Positions 44,181 to 45,318 of a stretch of 45,751 bases of DNA are shown in pieces. The translations under genes were made by a program, and so were the position numbers. The stretch is from Verrucomicrobiales bacterium. GTDB taxonomy: Bacteria; Verrucomicrobiota; Verrucomicrobiia; Limisphaerales; UBA9464. The DNA lies in NCBI GenBank assembly GCA_005793375.1, contig SXSK01000104.1, positions 1 through 45,751 of the forward strand, given 5' to 3'. Under the pieces are notes generated by a model, which saw only the letters and a list, made by a program, of their open reading frames with translations, searched no databases and was not told the origin of the DNA. The first letter of the stretch is position 1, and the number at the start of each line of letters is the position of its first letter.

Positions 44181-44188
44181 GTTTGGCC

Positions 44189-44839
44189 ATGCGACCTGCT
44201 GCTCCCATGCAATACCGTATCGTGCTTACCGGCGGGCCCGGTGGTGGAAAGACCACGGCGGCGGATTTGTTTCGACGCGAAATCGGTGACCGAGTGGTGA
44301 TCGTTCCTGAAACCGCGACGATTCTGTTTCAGGGTGGGTTTCCCCGATCTAAGGATCCCAAGGCGTTGAAATATGCGCAGACGGCCATTTACCAAGTGCA
44401 ACGCCGTTTGGAGGACGTTCAGGCCGCCCTTTTTCCCGGTCGAACCCTGCTCTGCGATCGAGGCACAGTCGACGGAGCCGTCTATTGGCCAGGGCCTCCA
44501 CAGGAATACTTCAGATCTGTCGGCTCATCTCTCGAGACAGAACTCGCGCGTTATGATGCGGTCATTTTCTTTGAGACGGCGGCGTTGGGCGGTGTATCCA
44601 TAGAAGGGGGGAATCCGGTCCGCAATGAGACCATGGACGAGGCTGTTGATCTGGATACGCGGTTGCGGGCCATTTGGTCTAAGCACCCTCGCTTTATCCT
44701 GGTCCCGCACAATCCGTCGTTTTTTAAGAAGATCAGTTTTGGACTGGCAGCACTGGAAGGGCTCGTGGCCCAGTTGAATGGAAGTAAACCGACAAAGGCT
44801 GCCAGGACACCGGTTCGCCGTGGCGGGCGGAAACCGTAG
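44189..44839 (+). CDS. AAA-domain ATPase/kinase-like protein
   Basis: The 216-residue protein has a P-loop GGPGGGKTT at residues 15-23, with VPETATILFQGGFPR and LCDRGTVDGAVYWPG as the second nucleotide-contacting and Walker-B-like elements. This is the AAA_28 group, whose members resemble nucleoside kinases and NadR. The function is unknown; substrates could be a nucleotide or phosphoinositide-like alcohol. A second ATG at 44207 would place the P-loop even closer to the N-terminus. The Arg/Lys-rich C-terminus is not conserved-looking. Confidence 0.82.
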   Translation: MRPAAPMQYRIVLTGGPGGGKTTAADLFRREIGDRVVIVPETATILFQGGFPRSKDPKALKYAQTAIYQVQRRLEDVQAALFPGRTLLCDRGTVDGAVYWPGPPQEYFRSVGSSLETELARYDAVIFFETAALGGVSIEGGNPVRNETMDEAVDLDTRLRAIWSKHPRFILVPHNPSFFKKISFGLAALEGLVAQLNGSKPTKAARTPVRRGGRKP

Positions 44840-44865: not shown

Positions 44866-45318
44866 CTAATTCTTCCGTTGTTTTGGCATTTCGTCGACAA
44901 AGCGGACTCGGACTTTCTGTTCCTGGCGCGGAGAGGGCCCCCTGGCGGGGGAAGAACGATTCGGCGAGACGGATTCCCGTCGAGTGCTGCTCCGCGAGCC
45001 GAGTACTGTGGCCACAATTCCTAGTGAGCCCCCGACGAGCACCAACAGAACACCGGCGATCACTTTGGCGGCGGGCGATTGAGAAAGAAACAAAACCAAG
45101 CCATCGATTACCAACACGGCATCGGCGCCAAGCAAGCTTGGCACCAACCATGGGTTCAATGCGGTTATTGAAGGGGCCAATTCAGACTCGCCATCGCGAC
45201 CGTGCAAGAGCAAGTTGACCCCCCCATTCGGCGGGGCATCGGAACTGGATTCGATCGTCGGGGCGGGCTCGCTTTTCAGCAGGCTTCCCAGACCCCGACC
45301 CAGTGCTGGTTTCGACAT
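44866..45318 (-). CDS. small membrane protein with ParB-like N-terminal motif
   Basis: The 150-residue protein begins MSKPALGRGLGSLL, the N-terminal motif by which ParB/Noc proteins bind the ParA ATPase, but nothing of the ParB DNA-binding or CTPase core follows. Instead there is a Pro/Ser-rich linker, two transmembrane segments at about residues 60-105 (LVPSLLGADAVLVIDGLVLFL and AAKVIAGVLLVLVGGSLGIVATVLG) and a basic tail. The motif could be a docking peptide for a ParA-type or related ATPase at the membrane. The gene lies alone on the minus strand. Confidence 0.75.
   Translation of the reverse strand: MSKPALGRGLGSLLKSEPAPTIESSSDAPPNGGVNLLLHGRDGESELAPSITALNPWLVPSLLGADAVLVIDGLVLFLSQSPAAKVIAGVLLVLVGGSLGIVATVLGSRSSTRRESVSPNRSSPARGPSPRQEQKVRVRFVDEMPKQRKN

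Follow-up and report, generated by a model that had tools for sequence, protein, structure and literature searches.

A ParB-type N-terminal motif ahead of a predicted membrane hairpin: a candidate membrane-anchored partner of ParA in Verrucomicrobiota

A gene near the end of the window (the whole 45,751-nt stretch of DNA analysed here) encodes a protein of 150 amino acids that joins the N-terminal ParA-docking motif of the partition protein ParB to a predicted transmembrane hairpin. The gene occupies positions 44866..45318 on the minus strand, stop codon included, and homologues of it occur in 43 of the 50 genomes analysed from the window's family. The protein is fairly likely to be a small membrane-anchored ParA-docking and ATPase-activating protein that presents a ParB-type peptide on a flexible tether. 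ParA activators and ParA's polar partners are already known, as is the docking peptide; new, among the literature matches listed, is ParB's own motif joined to a transmembrane hairpin alongside an ordinary ParB, since those matches include no transmembrane protein of this kind. To our knowledge, none of HubP, DivIVA/Wag31, Scy, PadC, and PopZ has ParB's N-terminal motif on a membrane hairpin.

Three parts make up the protein: an N-terminal motif, then a loose linker, then a hairpin of two membrane helices. The ORF translation begins MSKPALGRGLGSLL; the whole conserved N-terminus spans residues 1-14 (45277-45318, minus strand) and includes motif 1, LGRGLGSLL (residues 6-14; 45277..45303, minus strand), which holds invariant columns in aligned members. 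A second short linear motif, GVNLLLHG (residues 33-40; 45199..45222, minus strand), lies in the linker. Transmembrane helix 1, with the invariant Asp66, covers residues 58-78 (45085..45147, minus strand) and transmembrane helix 2 residues 82-107 (44998..45075, minus strand). A C-terminal tail, KVRVRFVDEMPKQR (residues 135-148; 44875..44916, minus strand), is conserved in members of genera g1, g3, g4, g5, and g7 and is absent from the aligned g6/g8 members and from 21 aligned members of the order. AlphaFold2, run on a 25-sequence alignment, places helices at residues 58-78 and 82-115 with a three-residue turn between them. The mean pLDDT of the model is 66.3, with block means of 70-89 across residues 51-110 and 48-61 elsewhere, linker included; a short helix at residues 10-14 is of low confidence (motif pLDDT about 60). 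Both ends of the protein are probably cytoplasmic, an orientation favoured by the distribution of charges (K+R/D+E of 3/0 in residues 1-16 and 12/4 in residues 108-150) and by the short loop. No Pfam family reaches its cut-off for the protein (best E 0.068), NCBIfam gives no match, and the best E-values against solved structures and PHROGs are only 0.33 and 0.63.

The ParB of the same genome (G000:C278) starts MSKPALGRGLGALLGG and matches HTH_ParB, ParB_N, and ParB_C in Pfam. Thirteen of the 14 N-terminal residues are identical in this ParB and the window protein, leaving one position different, and motif 1 scores 23.5 with a matrix derived from ParB. Together with the ORF and the AlphaFold2 hairpin, this bears out the sequence-only reading, which had placed a ParB-type motif ahead of two membrane helices. 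Specificity was counted in DNA with a strict pattern, [start]-x-K-x-x-L-G-R-G-L-x-x-L, and the same pattern read backwards as control; the strict form was adopted because a looser one did no better than its reversed control and was useless (90+62=152 matches in the own genome vs 87+97=184 reversed). The own genome contains exactly two strict matches, parB and the membrane-protein gene. Across the 50 family genomes there are 73, vs 2 for the reversed pattern; by position and translation 41 are parB and 32 the membrane-protein gene, with none elsewhere (four of the parB assignments, in G030, G062, G063, and G070, being made from only the N-terminus and ORF length or from a contig-end fragment).

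A profile search of the 50 family genomes recovered 32 strong members and seven divergent short members of the membrane-protein family; four further members (G005, G019, G022, and G058) were noticed ahead of mnmG and picked up by the following profile. A single-sequence search gave a match in 18 of 58 genomes, the own genome included, its loci L017, L019, and L020 being non-homologues by translation and L018 ParB itself. The motif core of the 43 family members is GRGL in 38, GKGL in four (G005, G019, G022, and G030), and degenerate in G017, the sole g9 genome with the gene, which reads LGKSLETLM. No copy was detected in seven of the 50 genomes (three g2, three g9, and one g3), so that the gene seems dispensable. 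Residues invariant among 22 aligned members are M1, K3, L6, G7, R8, G9, L10, L13, D66, L92, G96, R137, and R148, eight of these 13 columns falling within the first 13 residues; M1, L6, G7, G9, L10, and L13 are also invariant in 25 members that include divergent genera, as is Asp66 of helix 1 in alignments A2-A5. Far from being lost in homologues of the membrane protein, the outcome that had been proposed as a refutation, the motif is better conserved than any other stretch in the family and the order members fetched.

Beyond the family, 320 genomes of the order were searched with at most 11 candidates scored per genome, and 40 of the about 52 near full-length matches listed outside the family, from 21 other families, were taken for comparison. 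An N-terminal [LM]G[RK]-x-[LI]-x-x-[LI] motif can be recognised in every one of the 40, in 39 of them by pattern and in one (L297) upstream of the ORF cut, where it was seen separately; all 40 also have a linker followed by two hydrophobic peaks. G9 is replaced in several. Among 387 genomes of the phylum (own included), 58 have a match, and outside the order none covers motif and hairpin together; since at most 11 candidates were scored per genome here as well, divergent members may be missed. Matches outside the order cover either the hairpin, in most cases within a longer ORF (a few of them interrupted by a stop), or the N-terminus of ParB-sized ORFs. A combination of motif and membrane helices, which the sequence-only reading had proposed to look for in other Verrucomicrobiota, is present in 22 families of the order and in none of the matches scored outside it.

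Several known systems resemble the window protein in part. Like ParB (Spo0J), it has an LGRGLxxLL ParA-binding motif followed by a flexible linker, but it lacks ParB_N, HTH_ParB, and ParB_C and has a membrane hairpin instead. ParZ of Borrelia burgdorferi is likewise a non-ParB protein with a ParB-like N-terminal peptide, through which it controls ParA and its localisation, according to the part of the source drawn on (PMC9712426). ParZ is described there as centromere-binding, whereas the window protein has a predicted hairpin and no match to a DNA-binding family, and coexists with an ordinary ParB. Activators of ParA/MinD ATPases (AAPs) are described, in the portion of the account used here, as diverse interaction domains that each carry a charged stretch at the N-terminus (PMC7993993); PomX, MinE, ParG, TlpT, and McdB all carry such a positively charged stretch on an unrelated interaction module. 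These proteins are characterised in that portion by charge rather than by an LGRGL motif, none is described there as an integral membrane hairpin, and MinE alone among them is tied to a membrane-bound ATPase (PMC7993993). Pole or envelope partners of ParA or ParB include HubP, DivIVA/Wag31, Scy, PadC, and PopZ, which connect the partition machinery to the cell pole and, unlike the window protein, are described in the sections consulted as hub, scaffold, coiled-coil, or ParB-like proteins (PMC9927451). A link between partition and the cell pole or envelope, for which the sequence-only reading knew of no precedent, is therefore not new in itself, HubP, DivIVA, Scy, and PadC being named as ParA or ParB partners in the same sections (PMC9927451). 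The window protein shares the AAP layout, with three K/R and no D/E in residues 1-16 joined to a membrane hairpin, and has no match above cut-off to the MinE family in Pfam or NCBIfam.

Matches of ParA type that reach 160 bits, counted as strong, occur in 54 of the 58 sampled genomes. For mapping of ParA residues, chain 8ray_B was used, which we take to be the Myxococcus xanthus D60A variant. The ParA of a relative keeps the residues mapped to M. xanthus Y81, D110, and E117, which make up three of the four residues proposed as contacts; judged by pattern, the Y site fits in 27 of 30 ParAs of the order and the D/E site in 27 of 30. The fourth, E82, is likewise a proposed contact of ParB's arginine; at the site mapped to it, 23 of 27 order ParAs (loci L092-L121) have R.

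A membrane-anchored activator is the simplest reading, because the contact residues are mostly kept, AAPs graft N-terminal stretches onto other modules, and ParZ provides a precedent. The N-terminal peptide would most likely bind the chromosomal ParA-ATP dimer at the pocket used by ParB's peptide and, since the central arginine R8 is kept, would probably stimulate ATP hydrolysis by ParA. The membrane would then be a second site, besides ParB-parS complexes, that captures ParA and releases it from DNA, and this capture would shape the distribution of ParA near the envelope. Such recruiting or switching of ParA at the membrane is what we infer from the near identity to the ParB peptide, the restriction of the motif to parB and the membrane-protein gene in the family, and published work on that peptide. 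Also in favour of this reading are the concentration of invariant columns in the motif, its retention through the order members, the mostly synonymous codon changes within it, the strong ParA-type match in most sampled genomes, and the position of the gene near mnmG or parB in part of the family (both detailed below). Counting against ParA docking are the failure to find ParA in the own assembly, the lack of an operon with parA, the apparent dispensability of the gene, the degenerate motif of G017, the replacement of G9 in several order members, the less one-sided codon counts of smaller groups, the change at the E82 site, and the low pLDDT of the motif. If the reading is true, membrane and ParB are rivals for ParA throughout a large group of bacteria, partition and envelope are linked in a direct and genetically simple way in a phylum whose cell biology is little studied, and the docking peptide of ParB can be transferred as a module to a membrane anchor, much as a similar peptide is found on another DNA-binding protein in Borrelia. 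A defined peptide, partner, and pocket would then be at hand for testing.

The linker motif of the window protein belongs to a wider pattern, G-[VLIMF]-x-x-[LFV]-[LIMV], usually followed by x-G, with the core form G-[VL]-x-x-L-L. All 25 family sequences tested and 35 of the 40 from the order contain the pattern, compared with a mean of 0.8-0.9 and a maximum of 5 in shuffled linkers, controls that ignore relatedness (the L297 linker being shortened in this count); it is absent from 12 of 12 long-linker g3 members. Likeness to ParB was scored with a matrix from ParB peptides only, at p<0.05 against each linker's own shuffles. By this measure the second motif is ParB-like in 18 of the 40 linkers from the order, where 2 would be expected (IGRGLGTLIKG and VGRGVGSLLQG are examples), and in only five of 25 family linkers. 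In part of the order it therefore resembles a duplicate of the docking motif that in most cases lacks the arginine. GVNLLLHG of the window protein is not significantly ParB-like with this matrix, and for that reason an origin as a copy of the ParB motif is not claimed for it; it may have drifted or may be something else. In most members the second motif may add a further contact. On a bolder and rather unlikely reading, the two would be tandem docking motifs on each tether, the first, with its arginine, binding and triggering hydrolysis and the second, with the arginine usually replaced, binding without triggering. One chain could then fill both ParB-peptide sites of the ParA dimer and hold or switch ParA at the membrane, and the proteins would form, through much of the order, a family of membrane receptors for the chromosomal ParA on a verrucomicrobial hairpin anchor that is used elsewhere for coiled-coil proteins.

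Elsewhere in the phylum, longer proteins that resemble coiled coils have an N-terminal hairpin, which the hairpin profile also picks up. The own genome encodes one with the same type of hairpin followed by a coiled-coil-like stretch (L336, 2082-2921 of G000:C89); it has 275 amino acids from the first ATG and a weak GrpE-like match (E 3e-4) below the Pfam cut-off. This distribution suggests that the hairpin is an older verrucomicrobial membrane module onto which a ParA-docking peptide was placed in the window's order. Eight of the 40 order members (L272, L273, L287, L290, L292, L294, L299, and L300, by eye) extend at the C-terminus into an additional domain; this is related (hhalign probability 93%, E 2.9e-7) to a protein of about 93 amino acids that is encoded on its own, one example of which has no Pfam match. 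The fusion hints at a shared function. Genes for the 93-residue protein (HFLRIERE...VVH..DP+FS.EL) also lie, by pattern, near a hairpin-plus-coiled-coil gene in eight of 30 loci of the phylum search (L307, L309, L313, L320, L321, L322, L326, and L329).

Whatever probability is not assigned to the activator falls mainly to a role as cargo, to a different ATPase partner, or to a function not thought of. A cargo role, unlikely but deserving some weight, would have ParA move or space the membrane protein and its attachments along the nucleoid, as with chemoreceptor clusters or carboxysomes. TlpT and McdB, which are tied to the positioning of protein cargo, have a charged N-terminal extension in the portion of the review used here (PMC7993993), and the extra C-terminal domain in eight of 40 order members makes an attached partner possible because it also exists as a free-standing protein. 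The short form of the membrane protein, however, is almost nothing beyond motif, linker, and hairpin, and its gene has no dedicated ParA-like neighbour in the window, nor did patterns show one in the order loci. The latter objection is weakened by additional ParA-like matches elsewhere in the genomes of several relatives.

That the motif of the membrane protein docks another P-loop ATPase, such as a BY-kinase or Mrp, is distinctly improbable. ParA was not found in the own assembly, though ParB is present, and the AAA_31/CbiA matches there read as a tyrosine-kinase-like ORF of 750 amino acids, an Mrp-type protein, and other P-loop enzymes. The absence is weak evidence because the assembly is a MAG, 94% complete and in 426 contigs, and ParA is probably missing from the contigs rather than from the genome. 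Against such a partner stand the identity of 13 of 14 residues to the ParB of the same genome and the strong ParA-type match in 54 of 58 genomes.

A further explanation, with still less in its favour, is that the N-terminus is a functionless remnant of the 5' end of parB fused to a membrane gene. Within the family both genes share the start MSKPALGRGL, and the membrane-protein gene lies near parB or mnmG in some genomes. The classical gene order close to the replication origin is mnmG-rsmG-parA-parB. The next gene downstream on the same strand is mnmG in ten genomes from g6, g8, and g9, within 0.3 kb in eight and at about 0.75 kb in G026 and G058, with no other gene identified in the intervening ~0.75 kb; in an eleventh (G033) the contig ends about 320 nt on. 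In five g3 genomes (G024, G028, G059, G062, and G069) parB is 7-14 kb away on the same strand. Sequence patterns in the flanks of the 40 order loci revealed no parA, no mnmG, and one parB, 2.5 kb from L291 on the opposite strand. An operon conserved across the whole family was not found. Clustering of neighbours at 22 loci yielded partial clusters only, a weak negative because the ORF calls were crude and included many shadow ORFs. A functionless remnant would decay, yet the motif persists in 22 families while the linker diverges, and codon changes within it are mostly synonymous. Over the 14 N-terminal codons of 12 g3 members (66 pairs) there are 104 synonymous vs 0 non-synonymous differences, these and the following counts being pairwise with pairs that are not independent; codons 6-10 in 25 members give 1063 vs 24, and smaller groups over 14 codons give 32/8, 20/9, and 30/5, with 2/4 in one group of three. 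Gene conversion, or recent copying from parB, is excluded by the identity of only 26 of the first 38 nt to parB and by position 12, which is Ala in 15 of 16 distinct ParB 11-mers collected but in the membrane proteins usually some different residue, Ser in many cases (G019, G022, and L294 do have Ala). A chance resemblance, which the shortness of the motif might invite, is ruled out for practical purposes by the 73 strict matches vs 2 reversed in 50 genomes, all in two gene families, and by retention of the motif in order members.

In the family genomes compared (for example G003, G004, G009, G020, and G022), parA, parB, and mnmG are on different contigs, and the three genes are likewise separated at L093-L121 and L053. 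The gene that often adjoins parA in the family resembles, we presume, a CBS-DHH phosphoesterase. In the window, the membrane-protein gene is flanked by a divergent gene cut off by the contig end and by a convergent gene for an AAA_28 P-loop protein (44183-44839; Pfam E 8e-20), to which no link was found. A scan of named genomes gave 17 loci, of which 16 are members and one is ParB (L091); they are titled Verrucomicrobia or Verrucomicrobiales bacteria apart from five titled Akkermansia muciniphila, which may be mislabelled.
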